Of a stretch of 64,000 nt of DNA, positions 34,608-60,654 are shown piece after piece. Source of the DNA: Arthrobacter sp. Bz4 (lineage in GTDB: Bacteria > Actinomycetota > Actinomycetes > Actinomycetales > Micrococcaceae); the NCBI RefSeq assembly GCF_003075455.1, contig NZ_QDAE01000004.1, forward strand, positions 62,001 to 126,000, written 5' to 3'. How positions within the stretch are numbered: position 1 is the first letter of the stretch; every line of letters begins with the position of its first letter. A program made the position numbers and the translations under genes. The notes under the pieces were generated by a model that worked only from the letters and a program-made list of their open reading frames with translations, ran no database searches and had not been told where the DNA came from.

Positions 34608-34671
34608 GAAAAGTGGCCGACCCGCATTGCAGCGGTGGGGCCACCACTAGCCTGCGGGGCCGCCACTTTTC
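34608..34671. repeat. 64-bp palindromic element, copy A
   Basis: Begins GAAAAGTGG and ends CCACTTTTC, with internal ACCCGCA, ACCACT and TGCGG blocks in the same positions as copies B, C and D. It lies in a divergent promoter region, unlike the other three, which lie between converging genes. Confidence 0.85.
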
Positions 34672-34695
34672 CGGGGCGCCACGCTAGTGTGTACG

Positions 34696-34707
34696 ACTGT
34701 ATACAGT
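34696..34707. promoter_or_regulatory. Perfect 12-bp palindrome upstream of acnA
   Basis: ACTGTATACAGT lies about 18 bp upstream of a TATGAT -10 box and so overlaps the expected -35 region. The TGTATACA core is of the kind bound by FadR/VanR-type GntR regulators, one of which is encoded just downstream of acnA. Confidence 0.45.
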
Positions 34708-34770
34708 ATTCTTGCGTTTCGGGATATGATGGGTTCAAAGGCGTAACCAATCCTGGAAGGGATACTAGCA

Positions 34771-37602
34771 ATGACTGCTGTCGACACATTCGGTTCCAAA
34801 GACGTACTCGAGGTAGCGGGAGCTGAGTATCAGATCTTCCGCCTCGACGCTGTAGAGGGATCAGAGAAGCTTCCCTACAGTCTCAAGGTGCTCCTGGAGA
34901 ACCTGCTCCGCACCGAGGACGGAATGAACATCACCGCCGGGCAGGTGCGTGCCCTGGCCAACTGGGACCCCGAAGCTGAGCCCGACACCGAAATCCAGTT
35001 CACCCCGGCCCGCGTGATCATGCAGGACTTCACCGGTGTGCCCTGCGTCGTCGACCTCGCCACCATGCGCGAGGCAGTCGTCGAACTCGGTGGAGACCCC
35101 AAGCGCGTCAACCCGCTGGCGCCCGCCGAACTGGTCATTGACCACTCGGTGCAGATCGACTTCGCCGGCAACGCCAACGCACTCGAGCGCAACATCGAGA
35201 TCGAGTACCAGCGCAACGGCGAGCGGTACCAGTTCCTGCGCTGGGGTCAGACCGCGTTCGACGACTTCCTGGTGGTGCCGCCCGGCATGGGCATTGTCCA
35301 CCAGGTCAACCTCGAGTACCTGGCCCGCACGGTGATGACCCGTGAGGTCACCACCGACGGCACCACCGCCCTGCAGGCCTACCCCGACACCTGCGTCGGC
35401 ACCGACTCGCACACCACCATGGTCAACGGGCTCGGCGTCCTCGGCTGGGGGGTCGGCGGCATCGAAGCCGAGGCTGCCATGCTGGGCCAGCCCGTCTCCA
35501 TGCTGATCCCTCGGGTGGTGGGCTTCAAGCTCACCGGTGAGATCCCCGCCGGCGCCACCGCGACCGACGTCGTGCTCACCATCACCGAGAAGCTGCGCAA
35601 GCACGGCGTCGTCGGCAAGTTCGTCGAGTTCTACGGCGAAGGCGTCAGCGCTGTGCCCCTGGCCAACCGCGCCACCATCGGCAACATGAGCCCGGAGTTC
35701 GGCTCCACCGCTGCCATGTTCCCAATCGACGAAGTCACCATGGACTACCTGCGGCTGACCGGCCGCTCGGAGGAGAACCTGGCACTGGTCGAGGCCTACG
35801 CCAAGGCTCAGGGCATGTGGCATGACCCCAGCAAGGAGATCGCCTTCTCCGAGTACCTGGAACTGGACCTTTCGACGGTGGTCTCCTCGATCGCCGGCCC
35901 GAAGCGTCCCCAGGACCGCGTCGAGCTGACCAACGCCAAGCCGCAGTTCCGCAGCGACCTGGAAAACTACGTGCACCGCTCGGTCGAGGAAGAGGGCGCG
36001 ACCGTCGACGAGGCACTCGAGGAATCCTTCCCCGCCTCCGACCCACCCTCATCCACCGGTGCGGCCACCAAGATCGACGATCACCCGCACGAGACGGTCA
36101 CCAAGACCGAACCAGACCGCGACTCCAGCCCGATCGACGTCGTTACCGCCGACGGCCGCAGCTTCACCCTGGACCACGGGGCGGTCACCATCGCGTCGAT
36201 CACCTCGTGCACCAACACGTCCAACCCGTCAGTGATGATGGCAGCAGCAGTGCTGGCCCGCAACGCCGTCGAGAAGGGCCTGACCTCCAAGGCCTGGGTC
36301 AAGACCTCGGTCGCCCCCGGCTCGAAGGTGGTCACCGACTACTACGAGAAGTCAGGACTGATCCCGTACCTGGAGAAGCTCGGCTTCTACGTGGTCGGCT
36401 ACGGTTGCGCCACCTGCATCGGCAACTCGGGTCCCCTCGATGAGGAGATCACCCAGGCCATCCACGACGCCGATCTCGCGGTCACCGCGGTCCTCTCCGG
36501 TAACCGCAACTTCGAGGGCCGGATCAACCCGGACGTGAAGATGAACTACCTGGCCTCCCCGCCGCTGGTGGTCGCTTACGCCCTCGCCGGCACCATGGAC
36601 TTCGATTTCGCTGCCGATCCACTGGGCCAGGACGACGACGGCAACGACGTCTTCCTGAAGGACATCTGGCCGAACCCGGTTGAGGTGCAGCAGATCATCG
36701 ACGAGTCGATCGACAAGGAAATGTTCAAGGCCAGCTACTCGACCATCTTCGATGGCGACGAGCGCTGGCAGTCCCTGCCCACCCCGGCAGGGGACACCTT
36801 CGAGTGGGATCCGGAATCCACCTACGTCCGGAAGCCTCCATACTTCGAGGGCATGAAGGCCGAACCGGAACCCGTCACCGACATCGAGGGTGCACGCGTT
36901 CTGCTGAAGCTGGGGGATTCGGTCACCACCGACCACATCTCACCGGCCGGCTCCTTCAAGTCCGATACTCCAGCGGGTCGCTACCTGCTCGAGCACGGTG
37001 TGGAGCGCAAGGACTTCAACTCCTTCGGCTCACGCCGTGGCAACCACGAAGTGATGATCCGTGGCACGTTCGCGAACATCCGGATCCGCAACCAGCTCCT
37101 CGAGGACGTCGAGGGCGGCTTCACCCGCGACTTCAGCCAGGCCGACGCGCCACAGGCTGCCGTCTACGATGCGGCGATGAACTACCAGGCCGCTGGCACG
37201 CCGCTAGTGATCCTGGCCGGCAAGGAATATGGTTCGGGTTCATCCCGTGACTGGGCTGCCAAGGGCACCGCACTCCTGGGCGTCCGTGCGGTCATCACCG
37301 AGAGCTACGAGCGGATCCACCGCTCCAACCTCATCGGCATGGGTGTGCTTCCCCTGCAGTTCCCTCAGGGCCAGAACGCCGAGACGCTGGGTCTCACCGG
37401 CACCGAGACCTTCGCGGTGTCCGGCGTGACCGAGCTGAACAACGGCACCACCCCGAAGACCGTCACCGTCACGGCGACCCCCGAGGGTGGCGGCGAGCCC
37501 ATCACCTTCGAGGCTGTCCTGCGGATCGACACTCCGGGTGAAGCCGAGTACTACCGCAACGGTGGCATCCTGCAGTACGTGCTGCGCCAGATCGCCGTCT
37601 AG
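34771..37602 (+). CDS. acnA: Aconitate hydratase
   Basis: A 943-residue AcnA/IRP-type aconitase, the TCA-cycle enzyme interconverting citrate and isocitrate through a 4Fe-4S cluster. Cluster cysteines are in [13 protein letters not shown] (about 480) and [12 protein letters not shown] (about 546, two Cys). Other signatures are [20 protein letters not shown] and the swivel-domain [13 protein letters not shown]. An acidic, disordered insert (about 415-455, containing [11 protein letters not shown]) precedes the cluster domain and is seen in actinobacterial homologues. ATG 34771 follows GGAAGGGA. A candidate operator overlaps its promoter, and a GntR regulator follows 135 bp downstream. Confidence 0.97.
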
Positions 37603-37737
37603 CAGTTCCACCCGAGTCGCTCGTCGACGCGTCCGAATGGCTGTTCCATGAGTAATGTCCTAGCCCACACCCGTGGATAGGGTGCCTAAAATTCAGGTCC
37701 TACTTAGAGGAGCACCAAGTGTCTGAACCGGTTGAAA

Positions 37738-38406
37738 GTGTCTGATCCGGCAGATTCGACGGGACGCGTCGACGGCTCAGTGGTCTTCCGCGTGCTGCGC
37801 AGCGAGATTCTGGCAGGGGTCCATCCTCCCGGGACCCCGCTGCGCGAGGTGGGCCTTTCGGAGCGCTTTGGCGTCTCGCGGACTCCCATCCGCGAGGCGC
37901 TCAGCCGGCTCCAGCACGAGCGTCTGCTGGAGCGGGCCGCGCGGGGCCTTCAGGTGCCGCAGATTGACCCCCAGGAAGTCATCCAGATCTATGACCTGCG
38001 GGTGATGCTCGAACAGGAAGCTGCCGGACAGGCGTCCAGCAGCAGGACGGCCTCGGACATCATGCGCCTTGAGGCACTGGTTGAGCGGGACCGGGAACTC
38101 GATTCCCCGGATGACCAGACCCGGATCCGCTGCAACGTCGAGTTCCATGCGGCTGTCAGTACGGCCGCGCACAACCGGGTGTTGCAGGACCTGCTGGAGC
38201 GGCTCTCCACCCACCTCATCAACACGCCTCGGTCGACCCTGTCCGTTGGCAACCGATGGGAAGATGCGCTGGACGAGCATGAGGCGCTGGTGCGGGCCAT
38301 CATCGATCAGCGCGCCGACGACGCCCGGCAGATCGCCCGGCAGCACATGGAAACCGCCCGCGCACTGCGGCTGGATTTGTTGAAGTCGGCCGCGAAGACC
38401 GAATAG
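37738..38406 (+). CDS. GntR-family (FCD domain) transcriptional regulator, start uncertain
   Basis: 222-224 residues. A winged helix ([20 protein letters not shown] with [11 protein letters not shown]) is followed by an all-helical FCD sensor domain with Asp/His metal-site residues ([16 protein letters not shown]). FadR-subfamily regulators respond to organic acids. The start is unclear. GTG 37738 and TTG 37732 are in frame but lack a good ribosome site. The only strong site, GAGGAG, precedes GTG 37719, which is in another frame and stops after eight codons. Removing one A from the AAA at 37735-37737 would join the two. The location after acnA suggests control of TCA-related genes. Confidence 0.82.
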
Positions 38407-38464
38407 CGGCTCCCCACCTCGCCGTCGATGCCGGTTTCGGAGCCTGCGGGGCGGCCCCTCCCGG

Positions 38465-38532
38465 CAGAAAAGTGGTCCAGCCCCAGAGCAGTGGTGGGGC
38501 AACCACTTGCGTGCGGCCAGGCCACTTTTCTG
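38465..38532. repeat. 64-bp palindromic element, copy B
   Basis: The core 38467-38530 runs from GAAAAGTGG to CCACTTTTC, and the arms extend two bases each way (CAG/CTG). It lies between the converging GntR and monooxygenase genes, so it may also act as a terminator. Shares block spacing with copies A, C and D. Confidence 0.88.
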
Positions 38533-38547
38533 CGGCCAGACGTGCAG

Positions 38548-40050
38548 TTACGCCACTTTTTTGCGCTGCCGGGTGGAGCCTCGACCGGGAACCGCGTCGA
38601 ACGCCATCTGCTTGCTGACTTTGCCCAGCAGCACCAGCGGCAGATCCAGGAGATAGTTGGCGCCCAGCGTCCAGGGGGTGCCCGAACCCTGACGCGGAAA
38701 CACCTTCACGGCCCGCAGCATGAAGTTCGACGACAGGGCCAGCAGTGGCCGCCGCGCCATACCTGAGGCCGGCACCGGGACTGCCGCCGTGTGCCCGTTG
38801 CGGTCCATGTGCTTGAGCAGCCGGCACACGTACCGGGCGCTGAGGTCCGAGCGTAATGTCCAGGACGCATTCGTGTACCCCAGGGAGTAGCCAAAGTTCG
38901 GTACCCCGCTGACCAGGACGCCACGGTAGATCAACGACTCACCGAGTTCCACGGGGACGCCGTCAACACTCAGGTTCGAGCCGCCGAGGGATTGCAGGGC
39001 CAGCCCGGTAGCGGTGACGACGACGTCGGCCGCCAGCTCCCGCCCCGACGCAAGCCGGACCCCGCCGGCAGTGAACCGGTCGATCCGATCCGTCACCACC
39101 GACGCCTTCCCCGACGCCAGCGACCGATAGAAGTCACCGTCCGGCGCAGCACACACCCGTTGCTCCCACGGGTTGTAGGCAGGGGTGAAATGGTCACGGA
39201 TCTGCTGTTCGTCCTTGAGGATGCCGCGCGCCTTGTACCTCAGGTACGCCTTCGCCACCCGGGGCAGCCTCATGCACAGCTGGTAGAACCCCAGCGGGTA
39301 GAGAACATTGCGGGCCCGGGCCACCCGGTGGGCCGGACCCGCCGGCAGGATCTTCCGTGCGGCGTCGGAGAACCGGTCCCGGCGCGGCACCGTCACCACG
39401 TAGGACGGCGATCGCTGCAGCATGGTGACGTGGGCGGCGTCGTCGGTCATTGCCGGGACCAGCGTGATAGTGGTGGCGCCGCTCCCAACCACGACCACCC
39501 GCTTGCCCGTGTAATCGAAGCCAGCCGGCCAGAACTGGGGGTGGATCACATCGCCGGTGAAGTCCTCAAGGCCCGGGAGGTCAGGCTGGTACGGCTGGGT
39601 GTAGTTGTAGTACCCGGTGCAGGCGTACAGGAACGAGCAGGTGACGGTGCGGCGGTGGGTGGCGCCGTCGTCGTCGGTGTCCAGGTGCAGCGTCCAGCGG
39701 GAGGTTTCCGAGGAAAAGTCTGCACTCACCATGCGGGTGGCGAAGCGGATGTGTGGCGTCACGCCCGATTCCTCGGCTGCGTCCTGCAGGTAGTTCAGGA
39801 TGGCTGGCTGGTCGCCGATGGATTCCGGTACGGTCCAGGGCCGCCAGGGGTAGGAGAGGGTGAACATGTCGGAATCGGACCTGGCGCCCGGGTAGCGGAA
39901 GAGGTCCCAGGTGCCGCCGACCGCGTCGCGCGCCTCAAAGATGGCGAACGACTTGCCGGGACATTCGGTGCGCAGCCGGTGGGCGGCGCCGATGCCCGAG
40001 AGCCCCGCCCCGATGATCGCGACGTCGAGGTGCTCTATGGGGGAGGCCAT
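38548..40050 (-). CDS. Flavin-dependent monooxygenase, Baeyer-Villiger type
   Basis: 500 residues. The FAD-binding motif VAIIGAGLSGIGAAHRL is at the N-terminus, the NADPH-binding motif VVVVGSGATTITLVPAM near 175, and between them FTGDVIHPQFWPAG fits the Baeyer-Villiger/FMO fingerprint FxGxxxHxxxW(P/D). Such enzymes insert oxygen into ketones or oxygenate heteroatoms; the substrate is unknown. ATG 40050 is preceded by purine-poor DNA; the longer frame to 40140 is not supported. It is divergent from the DUF6457 gene and converges on the GntR gene across repeat copy B. Confidence 0.88.
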   Translation of the reverse strand: MASPIEHLDVAIIGAGLSGIGAAHRLRTECPGKSFAIFEARDAVGGTWDLFRYPGARSDSDMFTLSYPWRPWTVPESIGDQPAILNYLQDAAEESGVTPHIRFATRMVSADFSSETSRWTLHLDTDDDGATHRRTVTCSFLYACTGYYNYTQPYQPDLPGLEDFTGDVIHPQFWPAGFDYTGKRVVVVGSGATTITLVPAMTDDAAHVTMLQRSPSYVVTVPRRDRFSDAARKILPAGPAHRVARARNVLYPLGFYQLCMRLPRVAKAYLRYKARGILKDEQQIRDHFTPAYNPWEQRVCAAPDGDFYRSLASGKASVVTDRIDRFTAGGVRLASGRELAADVVVTATGLALQSLGGSNLSVDGVPVELGESLIYRGVLVSGVPNFGYSLGYTNASWTLRSDLSARYVCRLLKHMDRNGHTAAVPVPASGMARRPLLALSSNFMLRAVKVFPRQGSGTPWTLGANYLLDLPLVLLGKVSKQMAFDAVPGRGSTRQRKKVA

Positions 40051-40157
40051 GAGTCCATTATTGGGTACCGTCCGCTCGACTGGCCAACGTTGTGGAAAGT
40101 GCCCGCAGGTGCTAATTCTTGAGGGCACCAAACTTCCCACAATTTACGGAGTCCCAT

Positions 40158-40475
40158 ATGACAGGCATCGACGACGAACTGCGCACTCTCAGCGAATGGA
40201 GCCGCCAGCTCACCCAGGCACTGCAGATCCTCGACCTGGAGGTGGACCACGAGCGGATCGTTGAGGTCGCCGCCCAGACGTCCGAGACGGTGTCCCCCAA
40301 CGCCGGGGCAATCAGCGCGTTCCTGATCGGCTATGCGGCGGGCACGGCTGACACCAGCGGCCGTAAAGGTGCCGACGACGCCGTGCAGTCCGCGGCCGAC
40401 GTCGTCATGCAGGTCCGTGCGAAAGGCCTCGAAGACGGCCCGGACGCCAACGGCTGGACGAAGACCGCCCAGTAA
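40158..40475 (+). CDS. DUF6457 small protein
   Basis: 105 residues, predicted helical: LSEWSRQLTQALQILDLEV at the N-terminus, then AISAFLIGYAAGTAD and AVQSAADVVMQVRAKGLED. This matches DUF6457, which in Actinobacteria is found next to or fused with molybdopterin cofactor genes. Here it converges on an FdhF/YdeP molybdoenzyme, consistent with a cofactor-related role, although no function is proven. The ATG at 40158 has ACGGAG upstream. Confidence 0.75.
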   Translation: MTGIDDELRTLSEWSRQLTQALQILDLEVDHERIVEVAAQTSETVSPNAGAISAFLIGYAAGTADTSGRKGADDAVQSAADVVMQVRAKGLEDGPDANGWTKTAQ

Positions 40476-40485
40476 CAGGGGTTTT

Positions 40486-40543
40486 TGCCCGGTCAGTCGC
40501 GGTAGCTGCCCGGTCAGTCGCGGTAGCTGCCCGGACGGTCACC
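40486..40543 (+). repeat. 21-bp tandem repeat beside copy C
   Basis: TGCCCGGTCAGTCGCGGTAG plus C occurs twice exactly (40486-40506, 40507-40527), followed by a degenerate third unit starting TGCCCGGACGGTCACC. It directly abuts the left end of palindromic copy C. Confidence 0.88.
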
Positions 40544-40609
40544 AAAAAAGTGGCTCACCCGCAGGAAAGTGGTTGCTAGACCACGATCCTGCGGGTGAGC
40601 CACTTTTTT
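40544..40609. repeat. 64-bp palindromic element, copy C (near-perfect hairpin)
   Basis: The arms of 23 bp (40544-40566 and 40587-40609) are perfectly complementary, from AAAAAAGTGG to CCACTTTTTT. The 20-nt centre contains a small GTGGT/ACCAC stem. The aligned core 40545-40608 is again 64 bp. With poly-T on one side on each strand it is also a good bidirectional terminator for DUF6457 and the molybdoenzyme gene. Confidence 0.92.
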
Positions 40610-40645
40610 GCGTCCTGTGGTGGACGCTGGACGCTACGAGATGGG

Positions 40646-42985
40646 CTACGAGATGGAAGCCTTCGCGGCTGCGGCGGATGACGTCGCGTCGCCCTTGGTC
40701 GGTTCCAGCCGCACGATCACTGCTTTCGACATGGGCGTGTTGCTGCCCTCGGCCAGCTCCTCCAGGGGGACCAGCACGTTGGCCTCCGGGTAATACGCGG
40801 CGGCACAGCCACGGGCACTCGGGTAGGACACCACGCGCCAGTTCCGCAGCACGCGTTCCCGGCCGTCCTGATATTCGCCGCGGATGTCCACGTACTGGCC
40901 GTCAGAGAAGCCCAGCTCGGCCAGGTCCTCCGGGTTCACGAACACCACGTGGCGGCCCTTCTTGATGCCACGGTAGCGGTCGTTGTGACCGTAGATGGTG
41001 GTGTTGAACTGGTCGTGAGAGCGGAGGGTCTGCAGGATCAGGGTGCCTGCGGGACGCTCGACCGGCTGCAGGTCGTTCACCGTGATGATCGCCTTGCCGG
41101 TGGGGGTACTGAAGGTCCGTGAATCGCGTGGTCCGTTCGGCAGTACAAACCCGCCTTCCCGGCGAACCTTCTCGTTGTAGTTCTCGCACCCGTCCACCAC
41201 GTGCGAGATGTGCTCGCGGATCACGTCGTAGTTGGCCTCGAAACCGGCCCAGTCCACGTTCACCTTGTCGCCGAGCACGGCCCGCGCAAGACGGCTGACA
41301 ATGGCCACCTCGGAGAGCAGATTCGGCGCTACCGGGTCAACGGTGCCGTGCGATGGGTGCACGGCGCAAACCGTGTCCTCCACCGTGACGAACTGCGGAC
41401 CGTTGGCCTGCATGTCGATCTCGGACCGGCCGATGGTCGGGAAGATCAGCGCTTCCTTGCCGATTACCGCATGCGACCGGTTCAGTTTGGTGGAGATCTG
41501 TACGGTCATCTCGGTGGCCTGCATGGCTTCTTCGGCGACCAGGGTGTCAGAGATCGCTGCCACGAAGTTTCCGCCCAGTGCAACGAAAACCTTGACCTCG
41601 CCGTCGCGCATCTGGCGTACGGTTTCCACAGCGTCAATGCCATGATCCCGAGGCGGGTCGAAACCAAACTCCTCCTCGAGGGCGTCAAGGAATGCCGGCG
41701 GCATCTGCTCCCAGATGCCCATGGTCCGGTCGCCCTGGACGTTGCTGTGCCCGCGAATCGGGGAGGCACCGGCGCCTGGCTTGCCGATGTTGCCGCGCAG
41801 CAGGAGCAGGTTGATGATCTCCTTGATGGTGGCCACGCCCTTTTTCTGCTGCGTGATGCCCATCGCCCAGGTGATGATGACCTTGTCGGCCTTGATGTAG
41901 CGGGCCGCCAACTCGTCGATTTCCTCGACAGTCAGTCCTGTTGCCTGAAGGACCGCGCCCTCGTCCAGCTGGGTCAGACTGACTTTGAGCTCGTCAAGAC
42001 CCTGGGTGTGCTTTTCCAGGAAGTCGTGGTCCAGGACCGTTCCCGGGTTCTCCGCTTCGGCGTCGAGGACCCGCCGGCAGATCGCCTGCATGAGGGCCAT
42101 GTCGCCGCCGATGCGGATCTGCATGAACTGGTCGGCGATCTCGGTGCCGCGGCCAAGGACTCCCTTGACCTCCTGCGGGTTCTTGTACCGTTTCAGGCCA
42201 GCTTCGGGCAGGGGATTGATGGCGACGATTTCGGCGCCGTTCTCCTTGGCGTGCTCCAGCGCTGTGAGCATCCGGGGGTGGTTGGTGCCCGGGTTCTGCC
42301 CCATGATGATGATCAGGTCGGCTTTGGCGAAGTCATCGTAGGCGACTGTGGCTTTGCCGATTCCGATGGTCTGTCCCATGGCCCAGCCCGAGGACTCGTG
42401 GCACATGTTGGAGCAGTCGGGAAGGTTGTTGGTGCCGAAGGCCCTGACGAACAGCTGGTACGCGAACGCAGCCTCGTTCGAAGCGCGGCCACTGGTGTAG
42501 AACGCCGACTGATGCGGGCTCTCCAGACCGTTGAGCTTATCGGCGACCAGCGAGAACGCCTTGTCCCAGCTGACCGGCTGGTAATGATCGCTGTCGGCAG
42601 GCTTGTAGACGGGCTCGGTGAGACGCCCCTGCATGCCCAGCCAGTATTCGCTTCTGGTGAGCAGGTCAGTGATCGAATGCTCAGCCCAGAACTCGGAGGC
42701 CACCAGCACTGGAGTTGCTTCCCAGGTGACAGCTTTGGCACCGTTCTCGCAAAACTCGAAGTTGCTACGCTTCCCGGGATCGGGCCAGGCGCAACTCATA
42801 CAGTCGAAACCATCTTTCTGGTTCAGTGCGAGCAGGGTCTTCCGTGTCCGGTTAGGGCCCATATGCTTGATCGCCGGCTGCATCGAGTGAATGACACCCG
42901 GGACACCAGCGGCCCATTCCTTGGGTTTGCCAACCTCGATGTCACTCTCGTCGGCTTCTTCTACGTGCGGATTTGTGCGGACCAT
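40646..42985 (-). CDS. FdhF/YdeP-family molybdopterin oxidoreductase
   Basis: 779 residues. The N-terminal 4Fe-4S site is FDCMSCAWPDPGKRSN followed by FEFCENGAKAV. The molybdenum-bis-MGD core includes TSGRASNEAAFAYQLFVRAF, and SNMCHESSGWAMGQTIG supplies a Cys as likely Mo ligand. A C-terminal molydop-binding barrel follows (LRSHDQFNTTIYGHNDRYRG). It belongs to the FdhF/YdeP group, called formate dehydrogenase-like, though E. coli YdeP is linked to acid resistance and its reaction is unproven. It could oxidise formate from fdhA. ATG 42985 follows GAGAAGTGG. DUF6457 converges on it across copy C; a class I amidotransferase is divergent. Confidence 0.9.
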   Translation of the reverse strand: MVRTNPHVEEADESDIEVGKPKEWAAGVPGVIHSMQPAIKHMGPNRTRKTLLALNQKDGFDCMSCAWPDPGKRSNFEFCENGAKAVTWEATPVLVASEFWAEHSITDLLTRSEYWLGMQGRLTEPVYKPADSDHYQPVSWDKAFSLVADKLNGLESPHQSAFYTSGRASNEAAFAYQLFVRAFGTNNLPDCSNMCHESSGWAMGQTIGIGKATVAYDDFAKADLIIIMGQNPGTNHPRMLTALEHAKENGAEIVAINPLPEAGLKRYKNPQEVKGVLGRGTEIADQFMQIRIGGDMALMQAICRRVLDAEAENPGTVLDHDFLEKHTQGLDELKVSLTQLDEGAVLQATGLTVEEIDELAARYIKADKVIITWAMGITQQKKGVATIKEIINLLLLRGNIGKPGAGASPIRGHSNVQGDRTMGIWEQMPPAFLDALEEEFGFDPPRDHGIDAVETVRQMRDGEVKVFVALGGNFVAAISDTLVAEEAMQATEMTVQISTKLNRSHAVIGKEALIFPTIGRSEIDMQANGPQFVTVEDTVCAVHPSHGTVDPVAPNLLSEVAIVSRLARAVLGDKVNVDWAGFEANYDVIREHISHVVDGCENYNEKVRREGGFVLPNGPRDSRTFSTPTGKAIITVNDLQPVERPAGTLILQTLRSHDQFNTTIYGHNDRYRGIKKGRHVVFVNPEDLAELGFSDGQYVDIRGEYQDGRERVLRNWRVVSYPSARGCAAAYYPEANVLVPLEELAEGSNTPMSKAVIVRLEPTKGDATSSAAAAKASIS

Positions 42986-43112
42986 TTTCCACTTCTCTTT
43001 CTTACTTCGATACCCCAGACTTAGCAGGCAGCGCCGCGTACCGCAAGGCCCGGTCGATGTCGCGGGCCGAGTCTCGTGCATATCTGACCCATCAGGGCAG
43101 TAGTCTCGACAG

Positions 43113-43847
43113 GTGAAACCGTTTCTGCTGATTGCCACCCGTGCCGAGGACGCCGCCGCCGACGGCGAGTACCAGGCGTTCCAGCGTTTCGGCGGGCTTG
43201 AGCCGCACCAGCTACGCCGTGTGCGCGCCGAATCCGGCCCTCTGCCGCATGTCGACCTGGAGCACTACTCGGGCATAATGGTGGGTGGCAGCCCGTTCAA
43301 CTCATCCGACCCGGAACACCAGAAGTCCGAGGTCCAGCGGCGGGTGGAACGCGATATCGGCGGGTTGCTGGATCGGGTTGTCGCCGCCGACTTCCCCTTC
43401 CTCGGCGCCTGCTACGGGGTGGGCACCCTGGGGCGTCATCAGGGTGCGGTGATTGACCGCACCTTTTCCGAACCAATCGGGGCGGTGCCCATCACGCTGG
43501 CCGCCGAGGGCGCTGTGGATCCGCTGCTGGCCGGGCTGCCGTCGTCGTTCGATGCCTTCGTGGGGCACAAGGAAGCCTGCACCACCCTGCCCGACGGCGC
43601 GGTGCTGCTTGCGTCATCGGCAACCTGTCCGGTCCAGATGTTCCGGATCCGCACCAACCTTTATGCCACCCAGTTCCATCCAGAGCTCGACGTCGACGGA
43701 CTGATCCAGCGCATCGACATCTACCGCGACGCCGGGTACTTCCCTCCGGCTGAAGCTGAAGACTATATGGGTCGCGCCCGCTCGGCGCGGGTCGAGTGGC
43801 CGGCGACGATCCTGCGGAACTTTGTCAGCCGGTACGCGACCGCGTAG
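43113..43847 (+). CDS. Class I glutamine amidotransferase
   Basis: 244 residues of the GATase1/GMP-synthase-like fold. The nucleophile elbow is FLGACYGVGTLG (Cys about 95) and the catalytic His-Glu pair is in YATQFHPELDVDG. There is no synthetase domain, so it is a stand-alone amidotransferase or gamma-glutamyl hydrolase whose partner is unknown. It starts at GTG 43113, divergent from the molybdoenzyme. Confidence 0.88.
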   Translation: MKPFLLIATRAEDAAADGEYQAFQRFGGLEPHQLRRVRAESGPLPHVDLEHYSGIMVGGSPFNSSDPEHQKSEVQRRVERDIGGLLDRVVAADFPFLGACYGVGTLGRHQGAVIDRTFSEPIGAVPITLAAEGAVDPLLAGLPSSFDAFVGHKEACTTLPDGAVLLASSATCPVQMFRIRTNLYATQFHPELDVDGLIQRIDIYRDAGYFPPAEAEDYMGRARSARVEWPATILRNFVSRYATA

Positions 43848-51818: not shown

Positions 51819-51836
51819 ATTCTGATGCCACAGACC

Positions 51837-51890
51837 CAGCCTCGCTGGATGGCGCCGCGGCATCAGCCTTGCCGGATGATGCCGCAGCAT
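51837..51890 (+). repeat. Two tandem imperfect 27-bp repeats
   Basis: Units 51837-51863 and 51864-51890, both opening CAGCCT(C/T)GC and ending GCAT, match at about 22 of 27 positions. They lie between the GNAT start and the TGCATGC element, within the GNAT upstream region. Confidence 0.75.
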
Positions 51891-51908
51891 CAGGTAGCGG
51901 CGTAGTGG

Positions 51909-51997
51909 TTTTAAAAGGTGCATGCACTGCATGCAATGCATGCAGTTCGAGGAACTCAGAGTGCATGCATTGCCTGCAGTGCATGCACTCTTTAAAA
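51909..51997. repeat. TGCATGC element, site 2 (large inverted repeat)
   Basis: The left arm 51909-51948 (TTTTAAAAGGTGCATGCACT onward) and right arm 51959-51997 are nearly complementary over about 37 bp, with a 10-bp centre. Each arm carries three TGCATGC-type words and is bounded by TTTAAAA. The best-formed copy of the family; it lies between the GNAT and Old Yellow Enzyme genes. Confidence 0.88.
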
Positions 51998-52110
51998 AGC
52001 GTACCCACCCGAGGCCAACTATTCAGGGCGGGTTGTGCGCACCCAGCCCCGCCAGTCCGGCGCCGTTGGAATGTTGCGACAGGCGGGCGGAACGGTGCAG
52101 GGCTATTGGG

Positions 52111-53199: not shown

Positions 53200-53221
53200 A
53201 GCGATGCCTATCGGTCGATTG

Positions 53222-53278
53222 GTTGGTACGATAAACAACGTACAACGATGAAAGCCTTAGTACAACTTTCGTCGTACT
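53222..53278. promoter_or_regulatory. Paired palindromes between OYE and ArsR genes
   Basis: AGTACAACTTTCGTCGTACT (53259-53278) is a 20-bp inverted repeat with one mismatch. A looser GTTGGTAC...GTACAAC pair spans 53222-53246. Both lie in the 103-bp divergent gap and are likely operators for the ArsR-type regulator. Confidence 0.55.
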
Positions 53279-53302
53279 AGATCTCGATCGAAGGACTCAT
53301 TC

Positions 53303-53635
53303 ATGAGTGCAGAACCTCTCCCGCGGCAGGTCGGGCACCCGCTGTCCGACGAGTTCCGTCTAACCGAGGTATTGCATGCACTCTCGGATCCGCTCCGGCT
53401 GAGCATCGTGGCAGCCCTGGCGGAATCCGGCGCCGAATTATCCTGCAGCGCTTTCCACCTTCCTGTCACCAAATCAACCAGCACGCACCACTTCCGTGTT
53501 CTTCGCGAGGCGGGCATCGTGCGACAGCGGTACGAAGGGACAGCTCGGATGAACAGTCTGCGCCGGGAAGACCTCGACGCCGTCTTTCCAGGGCTGCTGA
53601 CGTCAGTGCTCGCGTCGGCGGGCCAGAACCAATAG
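53303..53635 (+). CDS. ArsR-type winged-helix regulator
   Basis: 110 residues with the ArsR winged helix: VLHALSDPLRLSIVAALAES, the recognition region PVTKSTSTHHFRVLREAGIV, then the wing with RQRYEGTARMNSL. The CVC metal-binding box of ArsR/SmtB is absent; a single Cys (ELSCSAF, about 53) precedes the recognition helix and could sense electrophiles or thiol stress. It is divergent from the OYE gene with palindromes between, so it probably represses that gene. Confidence 0.9.
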   Translation: MSAEPLPRQVGHPLSDEFRLTEVLHALSDPLRLSIVAALAESGAELSCSAFHLPVTKSTSTHHFRVLREAGIVRQRYEGTARMNSLRREDLDAVFPGLLTSVLASAGQNQ

Positions 53636-53691
53636 ATATTGAAGGCGATAACATTCGATTTTGATTATGCTCAATACCCGCGCGATTAGAG

Positions 53692-54753: not shown

Positions 54754-54851
54754 TCAAGTTACTGAATTCCTGACGCACTCCTGAGCGAATATTGCACCTC
54801 CGAGGTAGGTCGCCAATCTAGGCTAAGTCGAGAGTCTCACGGGGGAGAGAT

Positions 54852-55844
54852 ATGACTGCTGGTGCGGGCGCTGCTGAACAGGCGCGGCGGGCGTCACAGC
54901 GGGTGGTGCGCCTTCAGAATGAGTTGGCGCAGGCTACTGAAACCGTGGCTCGGTTGCAGAGTCAGCTTCGGCATGCCGAACGGACGCACCGGGCCTGGAA
55001 CGCTGGGGCTGCTGGGGAGTTGCTGGTAGCAGACCGCCTTGACCTGCTTGAAAGCCATGGCTGGCTTGTGCTTCACGATCTGCGCTGGCCGGGGAGACCT
55101 AAAGCCAACCTCGACCACGTAATTGTTGGGCCCGGCGGGGTGCTGGTGATCGATGCGAAGAATTGGGCTGGTGACGTTCACCTGCGGCGCGGAGAACTGG
55201 TCCAGAACGGGTATCTCAGGGTCAAAGAGTCGGCGGCTGCCCTGGAGCAAGCGAGTGCTATCGCAGCCCTGCTCGAACCCCAGCACAGACAGTTTGTTCA
55301 GACGTGGATTTGTCTGGTCGGTCAGCCAGATCTGAAAGGAGTGACCGCTTTGGGTGTGCGGATTGAGGGGCTGAACACAATCGCACCGTCTGTTAAGGCT
55401 CTCCCGAGAGTTTTAGAGCCGGAGTTTGTCCGCGCAATTTACCACTATCTCTCACGACTGCTGGCCGGAAACACGAGCCCTGTGCTGCTGACAACCGCAG
55501 GGGCCGGAGCCGAGGATGCGGCCGTCTCAACCTTGCGCCGACGTCGGACAGGTCCGGGGCGCTCCGGACGTATCCCGGTTGGGCGGTCTGCGCAGACAAA
55601 TGACTCCGGCAACCCCAGCAACCCCGGATGCTCACGCGCCGCGGGTCCGCATCGCCGGTCGGGTAAATCCACAAAAGTGACGAAGGGGTATGGCTGTCTG
55701 GGAGTATCCGTACGACTGGCAGGAGTCGCCCTGGCATTAGCCATCACCGTTAACCTTTTGAGTGGACTGGCTCAATCGCAGTTAATCCAACCGCAACCCG
55801 ATCCGACAATCACCAACCAGACGGCGAGCCCTGGTGCTGGGTAG
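54852..55844 (+). CDS. NERD-domain protein with coiled coil and C-terminal membrane helix
   Basis: 330 residues. An N-terminal coiled coil (about 8-45, VVRLQNELAQATETVARLQS) leads into a NERD nuclease-related domain with GAAGELLVADRLDLLESHGW, LDHVIVGPGGVLVIDAKN and LEQASAIAALL; the Glu, Asp and Asp-x-Lys residues match the endonuclease-like core. A basic Ser/Gly/Arg-rich linker (about 230-282) and a hydrophobic segment (about 286-306) follow, suggesting a membrane-tethered protein. Biological role unknown; DNA processing or defence is possible. ATG 54852 follows GGGGGAGAG. Confidence 0.83.
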   Translation: MTAGAGAAEQARRASQRVVRLQNELAQATETVARLQSQLRHAERTHRAWNAGAAGELLVADRLDLLESHGWLVLHDLRWPGRPKANLDHVIVGPGGVLVIDAKNWAGDVHLRRGELVQNGYLRVKESAAALEQASAIAALLEPQHRQFVQTWICLVGQPDLKGVTALGVRIEGLNTIAPSVKALPRVLEPEFVRAIYHYLSRLLAGNTSPVLLTTAGAGAEDAAVSTLRRRRTGPGRSGRIPVGRSAQTNDSGNPSNPGCSRAAGPHRRSGKSTKVTKGYGCLGVSVRLAGVALALAITVNLLSGLAQSQLIQPQPDPTITNQTASPGAG

Positions 55845-55882
55845 CAAAGATTAACTAAGCACCGAGATCCTCGGGGTCCCGA

Positions 55883-55907
55883 TTTAAAACGTGCATGCAC
55901 CATTTAA
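55883..55907. repeat. TGCATGC element, site 3 (minimal copy)
   Basis: TTTAAAAC, then GTGCATGCAC (55891-55900), then CATTTAA. It looks like both flanks of the larger elements around a single TGCATGC core, as if the interior had been lost. It lies between the converging NERD and HNH genes. Confidence 0.6.
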
Positions 55908-55918
55908 TTCGGACATAA

Positions 55919-56749
55919 CTAGTCTGCGGGTCCCAAGATCCGCTGCGCGTCGGCTTGAGACAGCAACTCCTCAGGACTGACGACCGCGCCCCGCAGAGAT
56001 GAAGAGCCGCGGAGTAGTCGGCGAAGCTCGGCTGGCGAATAGGGATTAGGCGCCCGGAGATGCGCCATTTCATGGCAGTTGGCGCACATCGGGACCAGGT
56101 CGGTCAGTGGGTCCAGCACATAGTCGGCGGTCAGTTGCGGGCCGGGCACGATGTGGTGGACCTGGATGAAGCCAGCACCAAGGGCGCCATAGGTCTCCTC
56201 GAAGTTGAAGCGGCAGACGGTACAGCTGCTGCCATGGTGGGCGATGCTTTGACGGTGAGCTTCGGGGTCGTGCTCGTAGCGGTTGACGCGGCTTCGCAGC
56301 AGGGCGCTGGCGGGAAGTGTGCCAGCGGTCGGGTCGACGGGATGAGCCTCCGACGACGGCGCATAGTCGGCCCACACGGCCCGGAGGAGCTGTTCATGGT
56401 CGACGGTGAGAACGGCCGCGCCATCGTCGAAGGGGAGGCCCGGCACGCGGCCGAACAGCACTGCCTCGGGGATGTGTTCGCCGCGGGGGAGGAGGAGGTC
56501 GACGTCGAGGAGTCCGCCGTCGTCGGGCGTCGTGACGACAGTCCCGTGACCGAACAGGCCTCGTTCGTTGGCGCCCTGCAGAACCAGCCAGACATCAGTG
56601 CCGGGGGGAACGGGCGGAACGACGGCGGGCCACCGAACGGAAGCGAATCCGGCGTCGTGCACGGCATCCTGCACCGAAGAGTAGGCGAACTGCCACCCCT
56701 CCCGCAGATCGGGATTCCAGCCGAGCATGATTGCCGTCATGGCACTCAT
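55919..56749 (-). CDS. HNH endonuclease-domain protein
   Basis: 276 residues. The C-terminal third is an HNH nuclease: the CTVC knuckle, IQVHHIVPGPQLTADYVLDP, then CANCHEMAHLR, giving the two His and the zinc cysteine pairs. The N-terminal 170 residues (LREGWQFAYSSVQDAVHDAG, then VPPVPPGTDVWLVLQGANER) form a separate strand-rich domain I do not recognise, perhaps for target recognition as in McrA-like or YDG-linked restriction enzymes. The start is ATG 56749; the frame continues upstream to 57337 but there it is antisense to the DoxX gene. Confidence 0.85.
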   Translation of the reverse strand: MSAMTAIMLGWNPDLREGWQFAYSSVQDAVHDAGFASVRWPAVVPPVPPGTDVWLVLQGANERGLFGHGTVVTTPDDGGLLDVDLLLPRGEHIPEAVLFGRVPGLPFDDGAAVLTVDHEQLLRAVWADYAPSSEAHPVDPTAGTLPASALLRSRVNRYEHDPEAHRQSIAHHGSSCTVCRFNFEETYGALGAGFIQVHHIVPGPQLTADYVLDPLTDLVPMCANCHEMAHLRAPNPYSPAELRRLLRGSSSLRGAVVSPEELLSQADAQRILGPAD

Positions 56750-56822
56750 TGTGCCACCAGCCTTAACGGCGTTGGCCGTGAACCGAACGTCCGGTGCACG
56801 GCCAACGCGATGGTGCGGCTGT

Positions 56823-57401
56823 TTAGGCTGGGTCGGTCGAGCCTTCGGCTGCCGGGGTGGCGTCCGACGCTGACGCGGCGTCGGCTGCCAGGGTCTTCCG
56901 GCGACGGTAGAGCTGAACACCGATCGCAACGGGGATCGCGGCCAGCGCGGTGGCACGCATCCAGGGCCGGTCGAGGACGTGGCCGGTAACCGAGTCCAGG
57001 GACACAGCGCCAGCGCCCGCGATGGCGAATGAGGTGGCAGCGAGTCCCAGCACGGCCGGGTATTCGAAGCCTCCCTCTGTCGCGAAGAAACCGTTTGGCG
57101 TGTGGACGCTTGCCGCGACACCCATGGTCGTCGCGGCAGCAGCACCGGCAGCCGGGGTACCGAGCCCGACGGCGAGTGCCAGACCCGCGCCAGCCTCACC
57201 CAATCCGGCAAGGACGGCGCTGGTCTTTGCCGGGCGGAAACCCATGGCGTCCATACCCTTGCTGGTTCCGTCGATGCCTCCTCCGCCGAACCAGCCGAAC
57301 AGTTTCTGTGAACCGTGGGCGACGAGGACGCCGCCAAGGGCTACCCGGAAGATGGTCTGCGCGGCGGTTGCTGCAACCGGCGTGTTTGTTTGATACGTCA
57401 T
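56823..57401 (-). CDS. DoxX-family membrane protein
   Basis: 192 residues with four membrane helices. The DoxX signature is IFRVALGGVLVAHGSQKLFG followed by MGFRPAKTSAVLAGLGEAGA; a hydrophilic Ala/Ser/Thr tail of about 30 residues ends the protein. DoxX-type proteins are linked to quinone-associated oxidoreductase or redox-stress complexes in actinobacteria. ATG 57401 follows GAAGGAATTCC. The gene appears to be monocistronic. Confidence 0.88.
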   Translation of the reverse strand: MTYQTNTPVAATAAQTIFRVALGGVLVAHGSQKLFGWFGGGGIDGTSKGMDAMGFRPAKTSAVLAGLGEAGAGLALAVGLGTPAAGAAAATTMGVAASVHTPNGFFATEGGFEYPAVLGLAATSFAIAGAGAVSLDSVTGHVLDRPWMRATALAAIPVAIGVQLYRRRKTLAADAASASDATPAAEGSTDPA

Positions 57402-57493
57402 GGAATTCCTTCGGTGGGGGGTGTGGTGCTGCGGACAGCTCTCCTTCTATAAGGCATCCCGGAGCCAGTTTCTTCCCCGGAAGCCGAAACCGG

Positions 57494-58159
57494 TCAGGAC
57501 CTCCGGCGGGCGCGCAGCACCGCATCGTGGATGGTCAGGGCCTCGCCGTCGTGAGTCTGCACCCGTTCCCGCGACTCGGTCACCATGTCCCACTGCCCCG
57601 GATCCAGGAGCAAACCAATCTCCTCGGCGGTGTAGAAGAGGTCGGAGCGGGGAGGCCGGTGCGCGCCAGATTCCATGTCGGTCGGGTGGTGGCCCACGAT
57701 CAGCAGGGTGCCGCCGGGCGCGACGGCGGCCGCCAGCCGGGTAAATAACGGTTCACGCTCTTCCTTGGGCAGGTGCATGAACTGGGCTGAGATGAGGTCG
57801 AAGGAGGACACTGGGGGAGCCCACTCCAGCAGGTTCTGGCGGGTCCAGGTGATCCGGGCGGCCGACGCCTGATCGGTTGCAGCATTCTCGGCACCGCGGG
57901 TGAGGGCCACCTGGGAGATGTCGACGGCGGTCACCGTCCACCCCTGGCGGGCGAGCCAGATGGCGTCTGCGCCTTCTCCGCAGCCGACGTCGAGCGCAGT
58001 TCCCGGCGTCAGGTCGGCTACCTCGGTGACGAGTTGTGCGTTGGGCTGTCCGCTCCAGACGGAGGGCCGATCGTTGTAGAACGCGTCCCAGTACGTCTGG
58101 TCGTATTCGGTGAACGCCTGCTCGGGGGTGTCGTGCGGCTGGTGGTCGTGGGAGGTCAT
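57494..58159 (-). CDS. Class I SAM-dependent methyltransferase
   Basis: 221 residues of the Methyltransf_25/11 type. Motif I is ALDVGCGEGADAIWLARQG, followed by acidic VTAVDISQVALTRG; later parts are SFDLISAQFMHLPKEEREPL and LLIVGHHPTDMESG. The N-terminal YWDAFYNDRPSVWSGQPNAQ is characteristic of the tellurite-resistance/thiol methyltransferase-like group. Substrate unknown. The start overlaps the stop of the small upstream gene by 4 nt. Confidence 0.88.
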   Translation of the reverse strand: MTSHDHQPHDTPEQAFTEYDQTYWDAFYNDRPSVWSGQPNAQLVTEVADLTPGTALDVGCGEGADAIWLARQGWTVTAVDISQVALTRGAENAATDQASAARITWTRQNLLEWAPPVSSFDLISAQFMHLPKEEREPLFTRLAAAVAPGGTLLIVGHHPTDMESGAHRPPRSDLFYTAEEIGLLLDPGQWDMVTESRERVQTHDGEALTIHDAVLRARRRS

Positions 58160-58377
58160 GAGGCGGTCACCTTCGAGGTTGAGTTGGTTTGGTCGAGGCC
58201 GCGGTGCGCTGCGAGGTCGCGCTGCAGTTCCTCTTCCATAAGGACCATGTTAATCATCGCGCCGGTCCACGAGCCATCGGCCGCCGACCCGAGCACCCGC
58301 GGCAGATATCCGACGGCGACTAGCCGGACGACCGCTCGTCGCACCACACCCGCAGATGGGCCCAATCTGTCAGCCAC
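58156..58377 (-). CDS. Small winged-helix-like protein, possibly N-terminally truncated
   Basis: 73 residues from GTG 58377. VADRLGPSAGVVRRAVVRLV with AVGYLPRVLG looks like the recognition part of a winged helix, but the first helix would lie upstream. The frame does continue 11 codons before the GTG, reading SDHRNSQW, until a TAA, without a start codon. It may be a decayed regulator, a gene with a shifted N-terminus, or a small protein in its own right. It overlaps the methyltransferase start by 4 nt, so the two are coupled. I do not recognise the C-terminal half. Confidence 0.5.
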   Translation of the reverse strand: MADRLGPSAGVVRRAVVRLVAVGYLPRVLGSAADGSWTGAMINMVLMEEELQRDLAAHRGLDQTNSTSKVTAS

Positions 58378-58398
58378 CCATTGACTGTTCCTGTGGTC

Positions 58399-58411
58399 AG
58401 ACCTAAGGTCT
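58399..58411. promoter_or_regulatory. Palindrome AGACCTAAGGTCT upstream of lctP
   Basis: A perfect 6+1+6 inverted repeat 22 bp from the GTG of the small gene and 120 bp before lctP. It is a possible operator for a GntR-type lactate regulator or the promoter region of the divergent gene. Confidence 0.4.
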
Positions 58412-58432
58412 TATTCGTTGGTAGAAATCTTA

Positions 58433-58447
58433 TTCCACAATGTGGAA
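58433..58447. promoter_or_regulatory. Palindrome TTCCACAATGTGGAA upstream of lctP
   Basis: A perfect 7+1+7 inverted repeat 84 bp before the lactate permease start. A related sequence (TTCGCATTGTGGAA at 62180-62193) lies upstream of the GlcD-type oxidase, suggesting both are controlled by one regulator, perhaps of the IclR or GntR type. Confidence 0.55.
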
Positions 58448-58530
58448 GTGCTTCGTCGTGTGAAACGCGCGGTCGGTGGCGTTCATAGTCGTGGAGTCAT
58501 TCGGTAGCCTCAGTCAAAGGGGACTGGTTT

Positions 58531-60462
58531 ATGGACAATCTTGCGGTGCTTAGTTTGTTGGCGTTGGCGCCGATCCTGGTAGTGGGGGTATTGCTGGCGG
58601 GGTTCCGCTGGCCAGCGAAATACGCCATGCCGGTCGGCTACGTTTTAGCAGTGCTGGTGGCACTGCTGGTTTGGGAGATGGATTTCACGGGCGTTCTCGC
58701 GGCGTCGCTCGAAGGGTTGATCGTCGCCGCGACCCTGCTCTATATCGTCTTCGGTGCGCTGCTGTTGCTCTCGACGCTCACCATCGGTGGCGCCATGGCG
58801 ACCATCAGGGCGGGCTTCAATAACATCTCGGCCGACCGCCGGGTGCAGGCCATCATCATCGGCTGGCTGTTCGGCAGCTTCATCGAGGGTGCGTCGGGCT
58901 TCGGTACGCCGGCCGCCGTCGTCGCCCCGTTGTTGCTGGCCATGGGCTTCCCGGCGATGGCAGCCGTCATGGTGGGTCTGATCATCCAGAGCACGCCGGT
59001 GAGCTTCGGCGCAGTCGGTACGCCCATCCTGGTGGGTGTGACCAATGGGCTGGGTGGAGACCCGGCAGTGGGCGAGCGTATCGCCGTGCTCGGGCTGACC
59101 ATGCCGGAGTACGTCTCGAACATCGGTTTCCAGGTCGCAGCCATCCACGCAATTGTCGGCATCCTGATCCCGCTGATCCTGGTCTGCATGCTCACCGGTT
59201 TCTTTGGCCCGGAGCGGCGTTTCCGTGACGGCCTGGCCGTCTGGCCGTTCGCCATTTACGCGTCGCTCGCGATGACCATCCCGTATGTGACCGTTGCGCG
59301 TTTCCTCGGACCGGAGTTCCCGTCCCTGTTCGGTGGACTGATCGGGCTGATGCTGGTCATGTTCACCTCCAGCAAGGGCTTCCTGATGCCGAAGGACACC
59401 TTCGACTTCGGGCCGCGCTCCTCCTGGTCCGACCGCTGGATGGGCACCATCGAACCGTCCGAGGCAACTGACGTCCGGACCCACATGAGCATCATCAGCG
59501 CCTGGTCGCCCTACGTGCTGATGGCGGTCCTGCTGGTCGGCACCCGGGTGATCGCTCCGCTGAAGGAGTTCCTGACCGGAATCCAGATTCCCTTTGAGAA
59601 CATCCTCGGCACGAGCATCACCACCAATGTGCAGCCGTTCTACTCGCCGGCGTTCCTGATGATCCTCGCCGCCATCTTCGGTTACCTGATTCACCGGATG
59701 AACGGGCAGCAGATTGCCCAGACGCTGAAGGTGTCAGGAAAGCAGTTGGCTGGCACCGCCGTCGCCCTGCTGTTCGCCGTCCCGCTGGTGCGGGTGCTGA
59801 TCCAGTCGGGTCCGGACCTCAACGACTCGGGTCTCTCAAGCATGCCGGTCACCCTGGCCGAGGGCGCCGCAGCCATCTCCGGTGTCTCGTGGCCGGTCAT
59901 CGCGCCGTTCATCGGCGCGCTGGGGGCGTTTGTTGCCGGGTCGAACACCGTGTCGAACCTGACCTTCGCCCAGTTCCAGTTCTCCACCGGTGTGGCCATC
60001 GGTGTTCCGCCTGAGCAGGTTGTCGCTGCACAGGCGGTGGGCGGTGCCGGTGGTAACCCGATTGCGATCCACAACATCGTTGCGGCCTCCGCGACCGTGG
60101 GCCTGCTGGGCAGGGAGGGTGACCTGCTCCGCAAGACCATCCTCGTGACCCTGTACTACTGTCTCGCGGCCGGTGCCGTGGCGTCGCTGTTCATCTTCGG
60201 CTTCGGCCTGAACCTTGGCACCTTTGTGCTGGTGGGGCTGCTGATCGGACTGGTCTTCCTGGCCCGATGGATGATGCGCTTCCAGGGCAAGGATGCGCTC
60301 TCGCTGGTCGGCGGTGGATCCGGGAATGGTGATGGTGCTGTCAATAGTGCTGGTGCGACGACCGGTAGCGGCTCGACCACCCGCCGGTCGACCGGACGCG
60401 GTTCGACTGGGCGCGATTCGGCACCGGGTGACGACGACGTCGACAACCGGGATCGGCTCTAA
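58531..60462 (+). CDS. lctP: L-lactate permease family transporter
   Basis: 643 residues with about 14 membrane helices. LctP/LldP signatures include [60 protein letters not shown] and [20 protein letters not shown]. These proton symporters take up lactate and glycolate. The usual length is about 550; the extra C-terminal 55 residues are a Gly/Ser/Thr/Arg tail ending in acidic [12 protein letters not shown] 58531 follows AAAGGGGA. The GlcD-type FAD oxidase lies convergently downstream and shares an operator-like motif, so they probably form a lactate or glycolate utilisation unit. Confidence 0.94.
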
Positions 60463-60510
60463 GCCACACCGGCGTGTCTAGGTCACTCAGCAGGGCCTAG
60501 GCACGACCAA

Positions 60511-60551
60511 CGAAGGGGCGGCATCCACAGAACCCGGATGCCGTCCCTTCG
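60511..60551 (+). terminator. Hairpin after lctP
   Basis: The left arm 60511-60526 (CGAAGGGGCGGCATCC) pairs with 60536-60551 at 15 of 16 positions, the remaining one a G-U pair, with a 9-nt loop. It is 48 nt after the lctP stop. No U tract follows, so it may stabilise or terminate the transcript. Confidence 0.6.
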
Positions 60552-60590
60552 CACGTCACAAAGAAGTGCACGAACCGCACGGCGTCCACG

Positions 60591-60654
60591 GAAAAGTGGT
60601 CAACCCGCAGGATTGCTGTTGGGCGACCACTCTTGTGCGGCTACGGCACTTCTC
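60591..60654. repeat. 64-bp palindromic element, copy D
   Basis: Runs from GAAAAGTGG to GCACTTCTC with internal ACCCGCAG, ACCACT and TGCGG in the same register as the other copies. The right arm has diverged (CACTTCTC for CACTTTTC), making it the weakest hairpin. Lies between converging lctP and the FAD oxidase. Confidence 0.8.

Follow-up and report, generated by a model that had tools for sequence, protein, structure and literature searches.

Four palindromes of 64 bp lie between genes in a 64,000-nucleotide stretch of the Arthrobacter sp. Bz4 genome (contig NZ_QDAE01000004.1, positions 62,001 to 126,000; hereafter the window), and their recurrence raises the question of what kind of element they are and which gene, if any, they belong with. 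They occupy window positions 34608-34671, 38467-38530, 40545-40608 and 60591-60654. The original prediction, made from the sequence of the window, took them for a defined dispersed element, similar to repetitive extragenic palindromes (REPs) or miniature inverted-repeat transposable elements (MITEs) or serving as a protein-binding site, rather than for chance terminators. This interpretation is supported: more copies exist, their boxes are conserved beyond the stem, they are intergenic, and their positions are common to relatives. The reading that we favour, with somewhat better than even confidence, is that the window repeats are solo copies of four-box palindromes with a nuclease gene as their partner, an arrangement like that of REP doublets forming hairpins and REP-associated tyrosine transposases (REPIN-RAYT) with an unrelated enzyme. 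The partner gene lies outside the window and hence was beyond the view of the original prediction.

A gene paired with palindromes and diverging with them

In the genomes carrying the palindrome of the window (type 1; clade A) and in a sister clade with a second type (type 2; clade B), two copies about 1.1 kb apart (starts separated by 1068-1148 bp) bracket a single gene between tgt and yhhQ. In the first member analysed, the product of about 310 amino acids shows an AbiEi_4 match and an MTES_1575 nuclease domain below the curated cut-off. Among 14 homologues, AbiEi_4 was matched in 10 and MTES_1575 in 13 (Pfam, E ≤ 0.01), and AbiEi of PADLOC in all 14. The partner protein is, by these matches, a probable DNA-binding nuclease that combines an AbiEi-type winged helix with a Vsr/MTES_1575-type PD-(D/E)XK domain. 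Residues E207, D238, E249, D251 and K255 (L180 numbering) are kept in 49/49 homologues, and our reading is that they form the active site. The dN/dS of the protein ranges from 0.09 to 0.31 in six pairs, indicating purifying selection. Homologues are present in 25 of the 38 genus genomes (E ≤ 1e-5) and, across the order, in 58 of 396 genomes and 24 of 109 sampled genera (E ≤ 1e-30). In Bz4 itself (G000) the gene survives on contig C6, where tgt and yhhQ flank it, as a broken remnant in more than one frame, with sequencing error a possible cause; it is open in the related genomes G009 and G057. At the loci of G002 and G000 the neighbours are tgt and yhhQ, and the palindromes were seen to enclose this one gene only, no search for DUF1814 having been made. 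A phage or plasmid origin of the nuclease was rejected, with no phage matches, three weak plasmid matches, no relative in two viral-contig scans and no PHROG match for two proteins. Two sequence matches to solved structures (E 0.35 and 0.65) were not credible.

The pairing of gene and palindromes was measured on 350 bp at each side of the matched gene at 49 homologue loci, comprising 21 from the genus (at least 225 bits) and 28 from 12 genera outside it (our own genome and one same-genus locus being left out), with 55 control genes taken from clade-A loci only. Left and right flanks match each other (score above 40) at 40 of the 49 loci (14/21 in the genus, 26/28 outside) and at none of the control genes, whose maximum is 30. 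None of 47 pairs of far flanks from the same loci passes 40, and the only arbitrary segment to do so (1/763) aligned N to N. Palindromes occur on both flanks at 29/49 loci and 0/55 controls. The matching flank sequences, present in the 12 outside genera with examined loci, are mostly palindromes and are distinct in each subfamily.

One palindrome of the pair usually stands about 70-300 bp before the matched gene start, as an operator might. An AbiEi-type module could thus autoregulate through its flanking palindrome, the solo copies being further regulatory sites and the nuclease serving, for instance, defence. Autoregulation by binding to inverted repeats is described for the AbiEi family, and its antitoxin Rv2827c binds four such repeats in electrophoretic mobility shift assays (PMC7319586). 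The second matched palindrome, however, follows the gene, and we rate this explanation as unlikely.

Protein and palindrome change together. With proteins taken from the matched start, which is not always the true start (the L194 protein is a fragment, and that of L208 ends at its stop), the elements are alike (score above 40) in 18 of 20 locus pairs at protein identities of at least 70%, in 8 of 30 pairs at 55-70% and in 0 of 985 pairs below 55% (Mantel rho 0.29; 0/999 permutations). Seventeen loci from two genera are linked by common neighbours on both flanks, yet they hold several dialects, and within them elements are alike only at protein identities of about 67% or more. Gene and palindromes therefore differ in dialect together at one place, tgt-yhhQ (of 18 loci having either gene, 17 showed a match to tgt and 14 a match to yhhQ). 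The gene and its palindromes may have been replaced as one cassette.

Four boxes at a spacing of 19 bp

The type-1 consensus is palindromic, roughly CNGAAAAGTGGC..ACCCGCA....AGTGGTTG..CAACCACT....TGCGGGT..GCCACTTTTCNG. Weak matches in other species resolve into the type-2 consensus of the same layout, CGCAAAAGCGCCGG.....GCAGGATCGTGGGGACGTCCCCACGATCCTGC.....CCGGCGCTTTTGCG. In 106 arms from 46 loci, not all of them independent, the sequence recurs after exactly 19 bp (5.78 of 9 positions match, compared with 3.25 after shuffling, standard deviation 0.13), and no other shift from 11 to 25 is comparable. The same shift gives the peak in the four window copies (z 5.4; next, shift 22, z 3.6) and in 52 type-1 copies (z 23; next, shift 22, z 7.9). 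In 35 type-2 copies it has the top z (13.5), but shift 11 comes near it (11.0) and slightly exceeds it in mean matches. Each arm thus consists of two boxes of about 10 bp set 19 bp apart, and the whole element of about 50-90 bp holds four boxes, two per orientation. A distance of 19 bp is about two helix turns. Within a dialect the box positions are almost invariant in sequence, not merely paired. The spacers covary only partly, their variable pairs being complementary more often than shuffled ones (0.50 vs 0.35 and 0.51 vs 0.38). Given this pattern of conservation, we favour boxes that would be read by a protein on duplex DNA, although a hairpin may be the form involved.

The four window copies align without gaps over 64 bp, as originally predicted, and some of the shared features then listed need narrowing. 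The first base is G in three copies and A in one, and AAAAGTGG begins one base later. The ACCCGCA block is present in three copies and replaced by AGCCCCA in the copy at 38467, and the common end does not extend to the copy at 60591, which ends GCACTTCTC. The half-site pattern has 6 matches in the window against 0.01 expected, a number reached in 0 of 100 shuffles. Compared with shuffled sequences, three copies fold well as single hairpins (RNA z -3.9, -4.3 and -12.1), and the copy at 60591 does not fold as one hairpin (z -2.6). A known RNA family was ruled out, since no Rfam family reached the gathering threshold in the window. A separate palindrome at 51909-51997 has 43-bp arms that are 86% complementary, with TGCATGCA words between A/T tracts. 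When the covariance model described below was applied to the window by itself, it also picked up 51905-52001 (30.6 bits); this is a different palindrome, outside the family.

Positions and dialects of the solo copies

A pattern search with up to three mismatches in the 3.41-Mb genome gave 18 strand matches at 14 places, compared with 7 matches for the reversed pattern. One place, C1:377621, held no element and was dropped, leaving 13 elements. Covariance model R1, trained on 11 of these (the two with an indel were kept out), found 47 strand matches at E ≤ 1 in the same genome, merged by hand into 24 places that include all 11 training copies by construction; 21 remain at E ≤ 1e-4. The further copies that a dispersed element implies are thus present, and so is its conservation in relatives. 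Of these places 23 were compared with relatives: 18 have a counterpart at the same position in one or more of G007, G009 and G057, one (C16) has its counterpart in the sister clade only, and four have none among the fetched loci, where absence is not thereby proven. A 58-bp hairpin at C6:78366, with two counterparts, is an ordinary-looking stem; it is still counted within the 24, 23 and 18 places and, three times, within the 73 places discussed below. Type-1 matches at E ≤ 0.001 occur in 15 of the 38 genus genomes; among the matches listed, at least 11 places were found only in G000, G007, G009 and G057, the 11 other genomes having 1-8 strand matches. Five weak R1 matches read in other families (L043, L044, L046, L050 and L052) proved to be hairpins without the full box set, and two exact-pattern matches in Desulfobacteraceae assemblies were half-sites without a palindrome, judged to be chance.

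The genomic context was assigned with a rough gene caller for 73 read places, spread over ten genomes. Converging genes surround 34 of these places, tandem genes 33 and divergent genes 5, and the remaining one lies at a contig end. None is wholly inside a called gene, in agreement with the predicted intergenic character; 7 extend slightly into the end of a gene, and 52 are no more than 50 bp away from a stop codon. Convergent gaps make up 43 of the 227 intergenic gaps of at least 80 bp in clade-A loci. This distribution, together with the A/T tracts of types 1 and 2 and the complementarity of the spacers beyond shuffled pairs, speaks for a family of bidirectional intrinsic terminators, in which an A-tract/T-tract stem would stop transcription both ways and the boxes would reflect common origin only. 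Such a family would nevertheless not account for box positions that are almost invariant beyond pairing, for the window copy that lies, like its G009 counterpart, in a divergent promoter region, or for the other divergent places. Several dialects also have no T-tract (e.g. L226, L237 and L238), and the nuclease gene, the 19-bp grammar and the co-divergence would be left unexplained. We regard terminators as an improbable account of the family, and termination may be a by-product of the elements.

The small number of divergent places also counts against an operator role of the solo copies, the 33 tandem places being ambiguous. So does the turnover of positions: among the fetched copies, 17 position groups are found in clade A only, 13 in clade B only and 3 in both, counts that the type-2 copies left unfetched could change. 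Positions common to both clades are the partner-gene locus and a solo behind purM; the C16 locus is probably another, with the nearest shared gene about 1 kb off. After purM in G008, G011 and G018 (L139, L140 and L155) there is a further kind of palindrome, roughly TCCCACTGATCG..GTGGGCAGGTTCGAACATTCCCAC..CGATCAGTGGGA, located close to where types 1 and 2 have their solo.

Gene contexts of the window copies were taken from open reading frames (ORFs), NCBIfam matches and the rough gene caller; no strand is assigned to the palindromes themselves. Copy 1 (34608-34671; 77.9 bits) lies between an adhP-like gene on the minus strand and acnA, encoding aconitase (34771-37602, plus strand), in divergent orientation; it is found at the same place in G009, is degenerate in G007 and is absent together with a larger deletion in G057. 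Copy 2 (38467-38530; 72.0 bits) lies between a GntR-type regulator gene on the plus strand and an FAD monooxygenase-like gene (38548-40140, minus strand), with counterparts in G007, G009 and G057. The latter gene separates it from copy 3 (40545-40608; 84.4 bits), which has a near-perfect stem, the folding z of -12.1 given above, and lies just past the 3' end of an FdhF/YdeP-type oxidoreductase gene (40646-43138, minus strand). All 64 bp of copy 3 are identical in G009, and the G057 copy is broken by a run of N. Copy 4 (60591-60654; 63.2 bits), an imperfect palindrome with counterparts in G007 and G009, lies between lctP on the plus strand and a glcD-like oxidase gene (60760-62124, minus strand). 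The predicted arrangement of three convergent copies and one divergent copy accordingly stands for copies 1, 2 and 4, and for copy 3 only if the small plus-strand ORF at 40158-40475, which has no family match, is a real gene.

Assemblies break at these palindromes, as seen in the N run inside the G057 copy (L087, near 10500) and in the contig-end copies at L017 (start of C16) and at the start of L062. At L114 (G000:C5:37738 and 37911) two copies lie about 173 bp apart at a place for which G009 and G057 list a single copy; this is perhaps a local duplication.

Solo copies of other dialects are likewise dispersed. With the type-2 model, G002, G004, G021, G022, G024 and G034 have 12-21 strand matches each, G017 and G028 have 2 each, and the type-1 genomes have none. 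Among the matches listed, a type-4 model finds solos by score, their sequences not read singly, in G002, G017, G024 and G034; this model also reaches some type-1 and type-2 copies. Model R3 has 35 strand matches in G000, and nine places among those listed are not type 1 (e.g. C2:196623 (L268), C2:47818, C1:311073 and C22:29687), none of them in the window. An arm, CAGAAACGGCCC, is common to the type-5 and R3 places that were read, one each in G000, G009 and G057. In G264, from another genus, the 400 kb around the gene contain the flanking pair and, in addition, two solos (E 5e-24 and 2e-19); the reversed control and the dialect of the other genome searched in this way gave no hits.

The 16 type-1 places listed in G009, whose origin was not located, all fall outside the interval from 0.89 to 2.74 Mb, in which an R3 match of another dialect (1632557) does lie. 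In G004 all ten type-2 places listed lie within about 0.9 Mb of a contig start with a DnaA-like motif, half the genome being 1.65 Mb. An origin-proximal bias of the elements is possible from these positions.

Copies that are dispersed, intergenic, palindromic and lineage-specific would also suit a canonical REP or MITE that owes its spread to a transposase, of the Y1 or another kind, and in which the nuclease gene is a passenger. However, the Y1 transposase (PF01797) has no match in the Bz4 genome (5 of 14 control genomes were positive; relatives were not searched), no GTAG or CGTC columns stand at the palindrome foot in two alignments of 11 copies each, and the nuclease and palindromes co-diverge. 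Within the REP/MITE-like class of the original prediction, the elements are thus not canonical REPs; the one absence read closely (G057, acnA), part of a larger deletion, shows no target duplication. We consider this explanation very improbable.

Proposed mechanism and comparison with known systems

In the favoured reading, the partner gene lies between two copies of its own dialect, and the winged-helix modules of its product, by analogy with the biochemistry of the AbiEi family, very probably bind the four boxes. Less certainly, the nuclease may nick or cut the palindrome, whether this is duplex DNA or an extruded hairpin, repair then spreading the copies, and by analogy with REPIN-RAYT it may help to disperse or maintain them. 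Copies would persist chiefly close to the 3' ends of genes, either because they are least harmful there or because they serve as terminators in both directions. A broader proposal, which we hold with slightly less than even confidence, is that AbiEi-winged-helix/Vsr-fold nucleases have long stayed at a single locus and that each recognises the four-box palindromes of its own dialect and disperses them, specificity and copies shifting together, as an independent REPIN-RAYT-like system widespread in the order.

A number of observations weigh against a partnership of gene and palindromes. Nine of the 49 loci score 40 or less; an element is still seen, by eye or model, on one or both sides in five of them (L183, L188, L194, L208 and L212) despite the low score, and is not clear in L189, L205, L206 and L220. 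A palindrome on one flank only is no commoner at these loci (12/49) than in controls (14/55), and the pairing of flanks alone could partly represent an operator and a terminator. The first cross-locus control had a 99th percentile of 129, passed by 0/49 loci, because some of the sampled loci share neighbours. Among cross pairs of the 28 outside loci, 19/756 pass 40, mostly within one neighbourhood or dialect, and the top eight are all among L212, L215, L217 and L218, which share one neighbourhood. Cross-locus comparison is thus a less stringent control, given that neighbours or dialect are common to some of the loci. In G306 the 400 kb searched contain the flanking pair and no solo. The searches made found no close cognate gene for the type-4 copies in G024 or for the type-5-like copies in G000, and families persisting without an intact close gene, as in G000, weigh against any stronger claim. 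In addition, neither an insertion with target duplication nor a clean empty site was seen, and the acnA absence in G057 is part of a larger deletion.

If the partnership is real, it would be a second case of a nuclease joined with a palindrome, built on an unrelated enzyme, with a clear grammar and many natural dialects, several of them at one syntenic locus, and it would become testable whether such repeats are selfish, regulatory or protective. The loci would also supply naturally occurring pairs of protein and DNA specificity, ready for study of the AbiEi-type module, and could help to explain what a large set of poorly annotated genes in actinobacteria is for. No description of the pairing was found in the open-access literature, subscription papers and preprints being outside the scope of that search.

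Several known systems share single features with this one. AbiEi type IV antitoxins (AbiEi, Rv2827c) belong to the same family of N-terminal winged helix-turn-helix domains, and known members bind sets of inverted repeats; here, in contrast, a C-terminal nuclease domain is present, putative sites are also dispersed in the genome, and no toxin gene was seen beside the partner gene at the two loci read (G002 and G000). DNA uptake sequences have lineage dialects. In Neisseria and Pasteurellaceae they are described as a conserved word that forms inverted pairs in the terminators behind genes (PMC1852404). They amount to about a thousand words, whereas tens of 64-bp four-box copies are found here; their hundreds to thousands of copies per genome compare with 24 places at the level of elements, single boxes not being counted. 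The MTES_1575 domain was named from giant HEPN proteins (PMC3710099), unlike which the present gene is stand-alone, encodes about 310 amino acids with an AbiEi winged helix and is flanked by palindromes, features that the available part of that source does not mention. CGTC-tagged REPs are short palindromic repeats that are described as having no transposase of their own (PMC3733652); here there is no CGTC tag and a partner gene is present. The RepRanger table gives predicted REPs for Arthrobacter livingstonensis (PMC12306157) as a count of predicted palindromes, with no such family, dialect or partner gene described in the accessible part.

Partnerships of a long-lived nuclease with dispersed palindromes are, to our knowledge, known chiefly from RAYTs, and what exactly RAYTs do is described as unknown (PMC8049555). 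Canonical REP/RAYT was rejected here, as there is no foot tetranucleotide and no Y1 in the Bz4 genome. The enzymes differ, RAYTs being HUH/Y1 proteins and the present ones probably AbiEi winged helix-turn-helix proteins with a PD-(D/E)XK-type domain, and so do the repeats, which here are palindromes of about 50-90 bp with four boxes, a 19-bp spacing and no GTAG. The bracketing of a gene by its own repeats, a feature of REP/RAYT systems, is seen here for a nuclease gene and not for a RAYT. In both systems extragenic palindromes are dispersed, a gene is accompanied by its own repeats, and that gene is long vertically inherited, as reported for RAYT genes (PMC8049555, PMC3733652).

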